Source of the DNA: Coriobacteriia bacterium
GTDB taxonomy: Bacteria; Actinomycetota; Coriobacteriia; Anaerosomatales; Anaerosomataceae
Direction: 5' to 3'
Length of the DNA: 45,756 bases
Assembly (NCBI GenBank): GCA_030655755.1
Contig: JAUSOQ010000027.1
Coordinates: forward strand, 1 to 45,756
Within the stretch, counting starts at the first letter, position 1. The number at the start of each line of letters is the position of its first letter. Shown piece by piece: positions 28,322 to 32,797 of this stretch. A program made the translations under genes and the position numbers. The notes beneath the pieces are model-generated. The model was given only the letters and a program-made list of their open reading frames with translations. It was not told the origin of the DNA and did not search any database.

Positions 28322-29668
28322 CTAGCAGCGCTTGGCGGTCTCCTCGCACAGCAGGCGAGGCCTCAAGAGCAAGACGCTGCAGTATGTGAGTAGCACAACG
28401 GCGCCCGCGAAGATCGCCCACGTGACGCCGATCGCGTCACCGAGTGCGCCGAACGCCAGCGAACCGAAGGGCATCATCCCCATGAATGAGAGCACGAACA
28501 GAGCCATCACGCGGCCACGCAGCTCGTTGGGGACGGCGGTTTGAAGGTTGGTGTTGATGCTCGACACGGTCGCGAGGAAGACGGCGCCCAACACGACGAG
28601 CAGTGCGGCAGCAATGGTGTAGCTGCGCACGAATGAGAGCGCGAGCACTCCGACCGCCATTGCGGTCAGAGAGTAGCGGATGATGCGCTCGCGTTTGACG
28701 CTCCTCGGCAGTGATGCCACGATCAGCGCTCCGATAAGCGCGCCGCCACCATTGAAGCCCATCAGTGCCGAGTAGCCCGTGCTGCCGAGACCCAGTGTGT
28801 CCGCCGCAAAAGCGGGAAGCAGTGTCATGAAGGGCATACCGAAGATCGTGAGCATGGCAGCGGTCACCAGATGCATCGCGACGTGCGGGTGTTGGCGCGC
28901 GTAGTGCAGGCCTGCGCCGAGGCCGCCGTCGTTGAACGTGGCGCCGCGCTCGCGAACCACCTGCTTGGGCCTGATCACGGCGAGTGCCCAGATGACGAAG
29001 AGGAAACTCACGGCGTTCACAGCGAATACCATCGTTATGCCGAGTTGCTCGTTGGCGCGGAACGCCGCGATGATGGCGGCGGTCACCATCGGTCCAACCA
29101 AACGCGCCGCGTTGAACTGCGCTGAACTTAGTGCGATGGCGTTTAAGAGGGACGAGCGCGGCACGAGGTCGGGCACCATCGCCTGCCATGCGGGGAACAT
29201 GAATGCCGAGACGACGCCCCCGGCGAGCGAGAGGCCGTAGATCCACCCTATGGTGAAGTGATTCGTCTGGTTGAGCACGCCGAACGCAAGCGCCTGCACC
29301 ATCAAGATCACCTGCGCGATGATGAGCAGCTTGCGTCTGTCCATGCGGTCGGCCAGCGAGCCGGCGAACAGTGTCAGGAAGAAGATGGGCACACCCGCGA
29401 GGAAGTTCACGATCCCGAGCGAGGAGGACGATGCCGTCAGCTGGTACACGACCCAGCCGAGTGCGACCGTCTGTGTCCAGGTGCCGATATTTGAGAGCAG
29501 CGCTCCGAAGAAGAAGTAGGTGTAGTCGCGGTGGCTGAAGGACTCGAAGGTCTTCAGGCCGCGGAGCACGCTTCGAGGCGGGCTGGAGACGTCGGCCTCG
29601 AACGTGGGAGTGTCTTGAGGTAGGGGCGCCTGTGGCTCGTGCGGTTTTGTGAGGGGCGTCTTGGACAC
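28322..29668 (-). CDS. MFS transporter, EntS/enterobactin-exporter-like (MFS_3) family
   Basis: A 448-residue protein with a hydrophilic N-terminus of about 45 residues and then 12 membrane spans. The segment after the first helices has A-G-S-L-A-D-R-M-D-R-R-K, the conserved MFS loop between helices 2 and 3, and N-E-L-R-G-R-V-M-A-L in the second half is typical of the EntS-like group. Substrates in this family include siderophores and drugs; none can be inferred here. GTG 29668 is the only reasonable start, but the good ribosome-binding site AAGGAG lies 13 bases away and is better spaced for an ATG in another frame. It is convergent with pstB. Confidence 0.82.
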   Translation of the reverse strand: MSKTPLTKPHEPQAPLPQDTPTFEADVSSPPRSVLRGLKTFESFSHRDYTYFFFGALLSNIGTWTQTVALGWVVYQLTASSSSLGIVNFLAGVPIFFLTLFAGSLADRMDRRKLLIIAQVILMVQALAFGVLNQTNHFTIGWIYGLSLAGGVVSAFMFPAWQAMVPDLVPRSSLLNAIALSSAQFNAARLVGPMVTAAIIAAFRANEQLGITMVFAVNAVSFLFVIWALAVIRPKQVVRERGATFNDGGLGAGLHYARQHPHVAMHLVTAAMLTIFGMPFMTLLPAFAADTLGLGSTGYSALMGFNGGGALIGALIVASLPRSVKRERIIRYSLTAMAVGVLALSFVRSYTIAAALLVVLGAVFLATVSSINTNLQTAVPNELRGRVMALFVLSFMGMMPFGSLAFGALGDAIGVTWAIFAGAVVLLTYCSVLLLRPRLLCEETAKRC

Positions 29669-29699
29669 GATCGTGCATCAACTCCTTCGGGGAAATGCA

Positions 29700-29731
29700 A
29701 GCGCCGCCCCCGGATACCCGGGAGCGGCGCT
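29700..29731 (-). terminator. Terminator hairpin after the glutamate-synthase-like gene
   Basis: AGCGCCGC (29700-29707) pairs with GCGGCGCT (29724-29731); inside, CCCGG (29709-29713) pairs with CCGGG (29718-29722) around the loop ATAC, with one mismatch between the blocks. On the minus strand TTGCATTT follows, a partial T-run, about 27 bases after the stop of the gene at 29758. The same bases precede the MFS start. Confidence 0.7.
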
Positions 29732-29757
29732 GTGTGCGCCGAGATGTCAGTCTACAC

Positions 29758-31350
29758 CTACTCGCAGATGATTCGCATGGCCTCTTCACGCTGGACGTCC
29801 ATCACATACTGGATGCCGGAGACCTTGGCGGCCTCCTCGGTCAGTGCGAAGACATCGGTGCGTCTGATGGACGACACATCGAACTTGCGGCTGCCGCTCA
29901 TGAGTTGCTGCAGGCCGACCTTGAGCTTGTCGCTGAACGTGTAGAGGGCGATCGCGCCGAGCGGCATGCTGTCGACATCGGCGCCGTACTTGGCCTTGAG
30001 GGTCTCATAGCTGACGAAGATCTCCTCTTTGCTGCCGCCGAATTCCGAGATCGTCTTGGGGAGGTTCTCCTCTTTCATCCACAACTCGATGTTCTTGCCG
30101 ACGAAGCCTGGGATCATGAGCGCACGCCCCATACACACGGCTTTCGTATGTGGTGAACCCATCGCGAGCACCTTATAGATGTGGTCCTCACTTGAGAAGC
30201 CACCGGCAATAGCGATGTCCGGGATGTAGGCGCCGTTACACCCGCGCAGCTTGTTGATGAGCTCGTTCGCCATCGACTGCAGGTAGAAGGTTGGGATGCC
30301 CCACTCCTCCATCATGCGCCAGGGGCTCATACCGGTACCGCCGGGGGCGCCGTCGATGGTGAGCAGGTCGATGCGAGCGTTGCTCGACCACTTGATGGCC
30401 ATGGCGAGTTCGCGCATGCCATACGCGCCGGTCTTGAGCGTGACGCGTTTCGCCCCAAGATCCCGGAGGCGCTGCACCTCGGCGTAGAAACCCTCCTCGT
30501 CGATGAAGCCGAGACGGCTGTGACGCTCGAACTGGCGGATGGCGCCGCCTGCGACTGCGGCTTGGACTGCCGGATCGCTCGGGTCAGGCGTTATCAGGTA
30601 TCCGCGGTTCTGCAGCTCGAGTGCGCGTTCGAGTGAGTTGACCTTGATCTCGCCGCCGATGCACTTGGCGCCCTGACCCCACTTGAGCTCGACGGTCTCG
30701 ACACCGAGTTTCCCGATGACGTACTCGGCGACGCCGAGGCGGGTGTCTTCGACGTTCATCTGCACGAGGATGTCACCGTAGCCCTCGTGATAGCGACGGT
30801 AGCTCTCAACACGGCGGTCCATATCGGGGGCTTTGGTGACCTTGCCGTTGCCGTCACGCTCGAGCAACGGGTCGATGCCGCAGACGTTCTCGCCACACAC
30901 GAGTGAGATGCCGCTGATGGCAGCGCCCACCGCGAAGTGCTCCCAGTTCTTGCGGGCGATCTCGGTGGAGCCAAGCGCGCCGGTGAAGATCGGCATGCGC
31001 ATCTTCACCTTGTTCACATCGCCGAAGACGGTCTCTGTGTCGACGTTCGGGAACAGCGTGTTGTCGGAGTCTCCCGTGACGCCGTCGGCCAGTCCCTCCG
31101 CGCCCAGTGCGTAGCCCATGATGTTGAGGTGCGAGTAGTCGATGGGGTAGTCCTTGTCGCCGCCTGCGGTGATCTCGCCGAACGGACCCGGATAGATCAC
31201 TTCACGTCCGCGGAACGAGGCCTTGAACACCTCGCAGTTACCGCGACATCCGTCGACACACCTCGTGCAGAGGCCGGAACCCGGCGTGACATTGCGCGAG
31301 CGGTTGGACGTCTGGGTGGCGTCGTTGGCATTTGGTTGCTGAAGATTCAT
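29758..31350 (-). CDS. FMN-binding glutamate-synthase-like protein (GltB domain 2 family)
   Basis: A 530-residue protein. From about residue 90 it matches the FMN/synthase barrel of glutamate synthase: G-A-I-S-G-I-S-L-V-C-G-E-N-V-C-G, E-L-K-W-G-Q-G-A-K, L-T-I-D-G-A-P-G-G-T-G-M-S-P and A-I-A-G-G-F-S-S. It has no glutaminase domain and no C-terminal beta-helix. The N-terminus carries C-x2-C-x3-C-x3-C (Cys28, 31, 35, 39), which could hold an iron-sulfur cluster. It likely makes glutamate from 2-oxoglutarate and ammonia or a separate glutaminase subunit, with ferredoxin or NAD(P)H donors encoded elsewhere; other glutamate-synthase-like enzymes act on methylamine-derived compounds, so the exact reaction is open. 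It diverges from glnA across GlnR-like sites, which ties it to nitrogen assimilation. Confidence 0.82.
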   Translation of the reverse strand: MNLQQPNANDATQTSNRSRNVTPGSGLCTRCVDGCRGNCEVFKASFRGREVIYPGPFGEITAGGDKDYPIDYSHLNIMGYALGAEGLADGVTGDSDNTLFPNVDTETVFGDVNKVKMRMPIFTGALGSTEIARKNWEHFAVGAAISGISLVCGENVCGIDPLLERDGNGKVTKAPDMDRRVESYRRYHEGYGDILVQMNVEDTRLGVAEYVIGKLGVETVELKWGQGAKCIGGEIKVNSLERALELQNRGYLITPDPSDPAVQAAVAGGAIRQFERHSRLGFIDEEGFYAEVQRLRDLGAKRVTLKTGAYGMRELAMAIKWSSNARIDLLTIDGAPGGTGMSPWRMMEEWGIPTFYLQSMANELINKLRGCNGAYIPDIAIAGGFSSEDHIYKVLAMGSPHTKAVCMGRALMIPGFVGKNIELWMKEENLPKTISEFGGSKEEIFVSYETLKAKYGADVDSMPLGAIALYTFSDKLKVGLQQLMSGSRKFDVSSIRRTDVFALTEEAAKVSGIQYVMDVQREEAMRIICE

Positions 31351-31403
31351 TCTTTCCCCCGTTTTCCTGTTGTGCGCTTACAGCCGCCTGAGTTTCGGCT
31401 ATC

Positions 31404-31441
31404 GTAACGTACTGGAAACATAGCAGAAAGCATTATGTAAC
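31404..31441. promoter_or_regulatory. GlnR-like operator between the glutamate-synthase-like gene and glnA
   Basis: GTAAC (31404), GAAAC (31415), GAAAG (31426) and GTAAC (31437) are separated by exactly six bases each, giving an 11-base period over four half-sites. This matches the actinobacterial GlnR consensus (gTnAC-n6-GaAAC, repeated). It lies in the 118-base interval between the two divergent nitrogen genes and could control both. Confidence 0.7.
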
Positions 31442-31468
31442 ATACAGCCCGAGAAATGGGGGATTTCA

Positions 31469-32797
31469 ATGCCTGCAGAAGTCAGAGCAGACGTCATCAA
31501 GACCATCAAAGGTCAGAAGATCGAGTTCATCCATCTGTGGTTCACGGATGTGCTCGGCTTTCTAAAGGCGTTCACCATCGACGTTGAAGAGCTCGAGCTC
31601 GCTATGACTGAGGGCATGGGCTTTGACGGAAGCTCCATCCAGGGGTTCGCACGCATCCAGGAGTCCGACATGATCGCACTTCCGGATCCGACGACGCTGC
31701 AGATCCTGCCCTGGCGCCAGAAAGGGGCGTTGGTGGCCACGATGTTCTGTGACATCAAGCGACCTGACGGCAGCTTTTATGAGGCTGATCCGCGCTACGT
31801 GCTGCGCCGCACCATCGAGCGCGCCAAGTCACTCGGCTATGACTTCTACATCGGTCCCGAGCTCGAGTACTACTACCTCAAGAGCGATCACGAGCCAGAA
31901 GTGCTCGATCATGCGACCTACTTCGATCAGACGACGCGAGATCTTGCCATCGATCTGCGCAAGGACACCGTTCGCGCACTGAAGCGCTCCGGCATCCAGG
32001 TCGAGTACAGCCACCACGAGGTCGGCCCGAGCCAGCACGAGATCGACCTGCGTTACTGTGAGGCCCTCAAGATGGCCGACAACGTCATGACGTATCGCGC
32101 GGTCGTCAAGGAGATTGCGCAGGAGAACGGCGTGTATGCCACGTTCATGCCCAAGCCGCTTTACGGCGAGGCCGGCAGCGGCATGCATGTGCACCAGTCG
32201 CTGTTCAAGGATGGTAGGAACGCGTTCTACGACGCGAGTGACGAGTACCATCTCTCAGCGACCGCCAAGTCCTACATCGCGGGCCTGCTCTACCACGCGC
32301 GGGAGATCTGCGCGGTGACCAACCAGTGGGTGAACAGCTACAAGCGCCTGGTCTCAGGCTACGAGGCGCCTGTGTACATCTGCTGGGCGCACCGCAACCG
32401 ATCCGCGCTCGTCCGCGTTCCGATGTACAAGCCGGGCAAGGAGAACGCCACCCGGGTCGAGCTGCGTTCGCCCGATCCCGCATGCAACCCGTATCTCGCG
32501 TTCTCGGTCATGCTCGCCGCTGGTCTCGACGGTATCGAACGAGGCCTGCAGCTGCCGCAAGACGTCGTCGACGACGTCTATGAGATGTCTGTCGAGGAGC
32601 GTGCCGATCGTGGTATCGGTCAGCTTCCCGAGGACCTTGCCGAGGCGATCTCGGCCATGGAGTCCAGCGAGCTTGTGCGTGAAGCGCTCGGCGAGCAGGT
32701 CTTCCAGTGGTTCCTGCGCAACAAGCGGGCCGAATGGAACAACTATCGCACTCGGGTCACGCCGTTCGAGCTCGAGGAGTATCTGCCGCTGCTCTAA
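31469..32797 (+). CDS. glnA: Glutamine synthetase, type I (alpha subgroup)
   Basis: A 442-residue enzyme forming a dodecamer that makes glutamine from glutamate, ammonia and ATP. Motifs: G-F-D-G-S-S-I-Q-G-F (near 50-59), E-L-E-Y-Y-Y (near 131), the ATP-region K-P-L-Y-G-E-A-G-S-G-M-H-V-H-Q-S, and N-R-S-A-L-V-R-V-P near 307. The length and the lack of the adenylylation-loop tyrosine motif (N-L-Y-D-L-P) place it in the GSI-alpha group, so feedback or transcriptional control is more likely than adenylylation. ATG 31469 follows GGGGGA. The GlnR-like sites upstream suggest nitrogen control. Confidence 0.96.
   Translation: MPAEVRADVIKTIKGQKIEFIHLWFTDVLGFLKAFTIDVEELELAMTEGMGFDGSSIQGFARIQESDMIALPDPTTLQILPWRQKGALVATMFCDIKRPDGSFYEADPRYVLRRTIERAKSLGYDFYIGPELEYYYLKSDHEPEVLDHATYFDQTTRDLAIDLRKDTVRALKRSGIQVEYSHHEVGPSQHEIDLRYCEALKMADNVMTYRAVVKEIAQENGVYATFMPKPLYGEAGSGMHVHQSLFKDGRNAFYDASDEYHLSATAKSYIAGLLYHAREICAVTNQWVNSYKRLVSGYEAPVYICWAHRNRSALVRVPMYKPGKENATRVELRSPDPACNPYLAFSVMLAAGLDGIERGLQLPQDVVDDVYEMSVEERADRGIGQLPEDLAEAISAMESSELVREALGEQVFQWFLRNKRAEWNNYRTRVTPFELEEYLPLL

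Follow-up and report, generated by a model that had tools for sequence, protein, structure and literature searches.

A candidate GlnR operator array in the divergent gap between glnA and a glutamate-synthase-like gene of a Coriobacteriia bacterium

Introduction

The nitrogen regulator GlnR is known from studies of Streptomyces, mycobacteria and related bacteria, and to our knowledge its input signal has not so far been settled. In a search of the openly accessible literature we found no description of GlnR or of nitrogen regulation for Coriobacteriia, Eggerthella included. The published GlnR consensus is gTnAc-n6-GaAAc-n6-GtnAC-n6-GAAAc, with the form t/gTAAC-n6-Gc/aAAC in M. smegmatis, and the A at position 4 is irreplaceable (PMC10704036). 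The amt-glnK-glnD genes are a classical GlnR target (PMC10704036). Here we compare with these systems an array of GlnR-like half-sites upstream of glnA in a member of the Anaerosomatales, and describe a regulator gene and further boxes in the same genome and its relatives.

Results

Position and uniqueness of the array

The window (the whole stretch of DNA analysed, 45,756 nucleotides of contig JAUSOQ010000027.1) contains four half-sites separated by 6 bp each, which places them on an exact 11-bp grid. They lie in a 118-bp gap between glnA, here called glnA1, and a gltB-like gene, the divergent starts being at 31350 (minus strand) and 31469 (plus strand). The features of the locus are as follows.

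29758 to 31350, minus strand: gltB-like gene, 530 aa, with a partial Glu_synthase domain (PF01645) and a Cys-containing N-terminus
31401 to 31406, minus strand: predicted -10 of the gltB-like gene, TACGAT, of the form TACnnT, found in most gltB-containing loci of the order
31404 to 31408, plus strand: half-site 1 (a1), GTAAC, overlapping the predicted -10 of the divergent gene
31415 to 31419, plus strand: half-site 2 (b1), GAAAC, the most strongly conserved of the four, at a distance of 8 nt from the -10 on the minus strand
31426 to 31430, plus strand: half-site 3 (a2), GAAAG, placed approximately between -36 and -32 in the predicted promoter of the gltB-like gene
31437 to 31441, plus strand: half-site 4 (b2), GTAAC followed by A, its G and AA kept across genera
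31458 to 31463, plus strand: ribosome-binding site of glnA1, GGGGGA, read from the sequence
31469 to 32797, plus strand: glnA1, type I glutamine synthetase, 442 aa

The array resembles the GlnR boxes at glnA of S. coelicolor and M. smegmatis in its half-site letters, its n6 spacing and the presence of two adjacent boxes before glnA, and all four half-sites have the A at position 4. It differs from them in lying in a gap common with a divergent gltB-like gene, to whose predicted -10 it is phased, and in that half-site 3 ends in G. The preliminary description of this DNA had placed four half-sites on an 11-bp grid in this short divergent gap, and had called their letters and spacing close to those of GlnR sites. 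Both statements stand: the array is present at those positions, and its half-site letters and n6 spacing fit the published consensus (PMC10704036).

The array matches 19 of 20 positions of a model made up of four G[AT]AAC units at 11-bp intervals. The runner-up in the window scored 15 when both strands were searched in the same way, and the best score in 40 dinucleotide-shuffled windows was 16; within the gap alone, p is approximately 0.0005 for the array. When the gap was scored at other spacings from 7 to 15, no score exceeded 13, so that the score is high only at 11 bp. In the genome (2.13 Mb), a pattern derived from the array had a single match and the reversed pattern had none. A scan of the whole genome for the four-part pattern with mismatches gave 49 matches, and the reversed control gave 39; two of the 49 resemble 16S rRNA, and scans as loose as this are uninformative.

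Half-site 1 and the minus-strand TACGAT have the letters GTA in common. Conservation of half-site 1 therefore has two possible causes, and for half-sites 2 to 4 there is no overlap with that -10 as an alternative cause.

A GlnR-type regulator behind a second glutamine synthetase gene

The preliminary description had proposed searching the genome for a GlnR homologue, and one GlnR-type OmpR regulator was found, directly behind a second glutamine synthetase gene.

C56:4484-6589: glnA2-glnR pair of the same genome, with the regulator gene directly behind glnA2
C56:5918-6589: glnR, one of the eight OmpR-type regulators of the genome

The receiver of the protein may be of the atypical GlnR kind, and its DNA-binding domain is GlnR-like (RTVDVHVRR). 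Its best PDB matches were 8hih (99.6 bits), 8hig (93.3 bits) and 8hml (85.9 bits), which we take to be GlnR structures, their PDB names being generic; PhoB followed at 77 bits. In the reverse search, the sequences of 8hih and 8hig, as they stand in the PDB alignments, both ranked the C56 protein ahead of the other seven OmpR regulators. In a tree, a split supported by 100/100 set every GlnR-like protein apart from five conventional regulators of the same genome. The Pfam model GlnR_1st matched the regulator weakly (E=6e-5, 23.4 bits, slightly under the cut-off of 27), and matched 15 of 24 orthologues at E<1e-3. Among the orthologues, receiver residues D9 and D10 are invariant and D51 is nearly so.

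No histidine kinase was recognised beside glnR when the open reading frames of the surrounding 18 kb were read by eye; in the same stretch glnA2 lies upstream, and genes for a methyltransferase, polA, rpsA, coaE and uvrB lie downstream. The regulator resembles actinobacterial GlnR (8hih, 8hig, 8hml) in its best sequence matches in the PDB, in the RTVDVHVRR domain and in having no recognised histidine kinase beside it. In contrast to actinobacterial GlnR, it is encoded directly behind a glutamine synthetase gene, and its receiver keeps D9, D10 and D51.

The distance from glnA2 to glnR is approximately 96 bp, and glnA2 is 62% identical to the glnA of the window. The pair was found in 26 of 27 genomes of the family, the exception being a genome that is 70% complete. 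More widely, a glutamine synthetase gene directly precedes glnR in 69 of 80 loci (L126-L205). The linkage extends to Eggerthellaceae, and every one of the seven loci of lowest rank (L199-L205) shows it; three of these seven carry the name Acidimicrobiales or Acidimicrobiaceae. The taxa concerned are Coriobacteriia and a few Acidimicrobiia.

GlnR-like boxes before other nitrogen genes

The 27 family genomes contain 42 matches to GAAAC-N6-GAAACA and none to the reversed control; matches apparently inside coding sequence (for example L100 and L124) are not regarded as members of the regulon. One copy lies approximately 70-115 bp upstream of glnA2 in every genome with glnA2-glnR (26/26). Twenty glnA2 promoters were compared. 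The hexamer [TC]AnnnT, which has a background of 1.4% per position, begins exactly 10 nt after the second half-site in 14 of them and after 9 nt in two, and the remaining four have GAnnnT after 10 nt. The predicted layout is that of a promoter with activator boxes in place of the -35.

Class II Pho-box promoters of PhoB are built alike, with tandem 11-bp direct repeats that replace the -35 approximately 10 nt before the -10, but they have other half-site letters and serve another regulon. The glnA2-glnR operon can also be compared with glnRA of Firmicutes, where a regulator and a type I glutamine synthetase are likewise encoded in one operon that is autoregulated through its own boxes. The Firmicute GlnR, however, belongs to the MerR and not to the OmpR family, the gene order is the opposite, and the operator is different.

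Boxes were also found upstream of the amt-glnK-glnD operon in G015 (the sister species) and G018, and other amt promoters in relatives carry GACAC-N6-GAAAC-like grids. Searches of the array's own genome for P-II, Amt and GlnE (PF00543, PF00909 and PF03710) were negative, whereas P-II is present in 25 of the 27 family genomes; the genome has therefore probably lost amt-glnK-glnD, to judge from these domain searches. A search for the pattern before amt, glnK and other nitrogen genes had been proposed. Boxes of this kind precede glnA2-glnR and, in relatives, amt-glnK-glnD; this genome has neither amt nor glnK, so that the amt and glnK boxes could be checked in relatives only.

The array's own genome, G007 and genus g9 have an inverted copy of the box in front of an HdrBC-like gene. 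On contig C45 of the genome, the HdrBC-like gene is followed by an amidotransferase-like gene (identified by eye), a full-length Glu_synthase gene and a GXGXG gene, which together are predicted to be an archaeal-type GOGAT operon. The inverted GAAAC pair is at C45:86868-86884 (L221 2370-2385), between an ANTAR response regulator and the HdrBC-GOGAT operon. G007 has a pair at the corresponding position, and in genus g9 a pair precedes the HdrBC-like gene; by eye, the distance from the pair to a -10 is approximately 30 nt in the array's own genome and 20 nt in the others.

These boxes bear on the identity of the protein that uses the array. Eleven-bp direct repeats are general in the OmpR/PhoB family, PhoP included, and with eight OmpR-type regulators in the genome the array might be the site of another of them, for example a PhoP orthologue. 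Against this, the same half-sites occur before nitrogen genes (glnA2-glnR, amt-glnK-glnD and GOGAT), and their letters fit the published GlnR consensus (PMC10704036). We therefore consider another regulator of this type unlikely.

Conservation of the array in relatives

The comparison covered the upstream regions of 25 orthologues from the family, with 15 more from elsewhere in the order. Where a divergent gltB-like gene is present (29 loci), the best four-unit scores averaged 16.4 at a spacing of 11, against 11.2-11.9 at other spacings, 11.5 on the reverse strand and 10.8 after shuffling. These comparisons are fair because the same maximisation was used in each. Half-site columns held 1.13 bits and spacers 0.33, values that are inflated because the alignment was anchored on the grid. 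A genome with no GlnR-type regulator, or half-sites that are not conserved between related genomes, had been named beforehand as evidence against the proposal; neither is the case here. From one family of the order to another the 11-bp grid is kept and the 6-bp spacers differ, the arrays of other families being shifted one unit towards glnA.

The regular grid could be fortuitous if the conserved letters were core elements of two overlapping promoters, since half-site 1 overlaps the conserved minus-strand -10 and half-site 4 holds TAACAT, a possible plus-strand -10. Half-sites 2 and 3 fit no such element, however, and neither the retention of the 11-bp register beside diverging spacers nor the collapse of the score at other spacings, on the opposite strand or after shuffling agrees with this explanation, which we regard as very improbable. 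The score, the regulator gene, the motif of the regulon and the conservation of the grid together indicate that the array is very probably a genuine GlnR operator, that is, the operator of the OmpR-type GlnR orthologue encoded at C56:5918-6589, which we infer to bind it.

The array follows the gltB-like gene: it was present at 24 of 29 loci with the gene and 2 of 11 without it (Fisher p=0.0003, an optimistic value because the loci are related and not independent). Locus L029 has an array and no divergent gltB-like gene, and at L025, L026, L263, L266 and L272 the gltB-like gene is accompanied by a weak array. At the loci with the gene, the minus-strand -10 has the form TAnnnT, mostly TACnnT, and a GAAA-type half-site lies 8-9 nt from it in 21-23 of the 29. 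The array, as read from these alignments, keeps a fixed phase with the predicted -10 of the gltB-like gene.

A different grid, TTCAT-N6-G[AC][AC]AC-N6-GAATT, was seen upstream of glnA1 at L020, L027 and L034, where no divergent gltB-like gene was found. It lies 10 nt before TA[GT]CGT, and is possibly a re-positioned GlnR promoter for glnA1.

The gene served by the array

In Streptomyces and mycobacteria GlnR activates glnA, and the array could act in the same way on glnA1, with the gltB-like gene affected only incidentally. Its position just upstream of the glnA1 ATG, the array of L029 and the orientation of the boxes on the glnA1 coding strand, which is usual for GlnR targets (PMC10704036), are all consistent with this. 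On the other hand, the arrangement of the glnA2 promoter (half-site, 10 nt, [TG]AnnnT) is found downstream of none of the four half-sites, and the array ends 16-30 nt before the glnA1 start codon in most relatives, which leaves scant room for a promoter. Where the gltB-like gene is absent the array is usually absent too, yet glnA1 is still there. Activation of glnA1 as the main function is therefore possible but rather doubtful.

Neither in the array nor in the sequence downstream of it could a convincing -10 for glnA1 be recognised. TAACGT (31405-31410) was considered as a plus-strand -10 and rejected, as its final T is lost in several relatives and the hexamer is absent from other families; TAACAT in half-site 4 was also considered and rejected: the letters at its two ends differ between loci, and the G in front of it is kept.

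Relative to the predicted gltB-like promoter, half-site 2 is at approximately -23, half-site 3 at -34 and half-site 4 at -45; they are inverted and overlie its -35. This arrangement, together with the tracking of the gene by the array, suggests that GlnR acts mainly on the gltB-like promoter, and that the gltB-like gene is a principal GlnR target; an effect on glnA1 is also probable. The boxes are inverted relative to the gltB-like gene and not relative to glnA2 and amt, so that activation through the same contact is unlikely. Repression by occlusion of the -35 is slightly favoured over activation, although repression of the gltB-like gene by GlnR is a guess.

It had been suggested that one operator may control both arms of ammonia assimilation. 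This is not supported for the gltB-like gene, whose product matches PF01645 in part only and falls short of a complete Glu_synthase domain with an amidotransferase partner; the gene is predicted not to be the GOGAT gene of the cell, given the separate archaeal-type operon on C45. The array, moreover, follows the gltB-like gene and not glnA. A search for solved structures related to the gltB-like protein by sequence found none.

Two further observations were made around the gltB-like gene. By eye, its 5′ leader in several relatives could form a small hairpin with a GTGA loop, for example GGCCC-GTGA-GGGCC; the stretch concerned is 31355-31400 in the window and the corresponding one at L015, L016, L018 and L035. 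Downstream of the gene is a 450-aa open reading frame (28437-29789, minus strand) with an overlapping 448-aa frame at 28322-29668; the former has no Pfam or NCBIfam match and may be a wrong-frame reading.

Discussion

We propose the following model. Under nitrogen limitation GlnR would bind the array in the classical a-b-a-b layout, as two dimers head to tail. The GlnR copies would face glnA1 and cover approximately -20 to -48 of the gltB-like promoter, occupying its -35. From this common gap GlnR would set how strongly the gltB-like gene, and probably glnA1 too, is expressed, and it would raise its own glnA2-glnR operon through GAAAC-N6-GAAAC-N10-[TG]AnnnT, where the boxes replace the -35.

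The use of GlnR logic outside Streptomyces and Mycobacterium, foreseen in the preliminary description, agrees with the presence of both regulator and boxes in Anaerosomatales. There is a coherent candidate GlnR regulon in this order, and the same regulator gene is found in Eggerthellaceae and Acidimicrobiia. As far as genome comparison can tell, this indicates that a GlnR system is also at work in the Anaerosomatales, a deep actinobacterial branch within the Coriobacteriia.

The linkage of glnA and glnR in deep branches makes glutamine synthetase a candidate partner of GlnR, and a simple test case for the GlnR input is offered by a genome such as this one, from which P-II, Amt and GlnE are all absent. 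In such a genome GlnR might be controlled directly by the glutamine synthetase of its own operon, the glutamine-bound enzyme serving as sensor. This is speculative and on balance improbable. If true, it would be an OmpR-type counterpart, independently arisen, of the MerR-type GlnR-glutamine synthetase circuit of Firmicutes, and would answer how an orphan GlnR senses nitrogen. For the gltB-like protein the array is a first regulatory clue. The unusual glnA-glnR operon is a more interesting lead than the operator itself.
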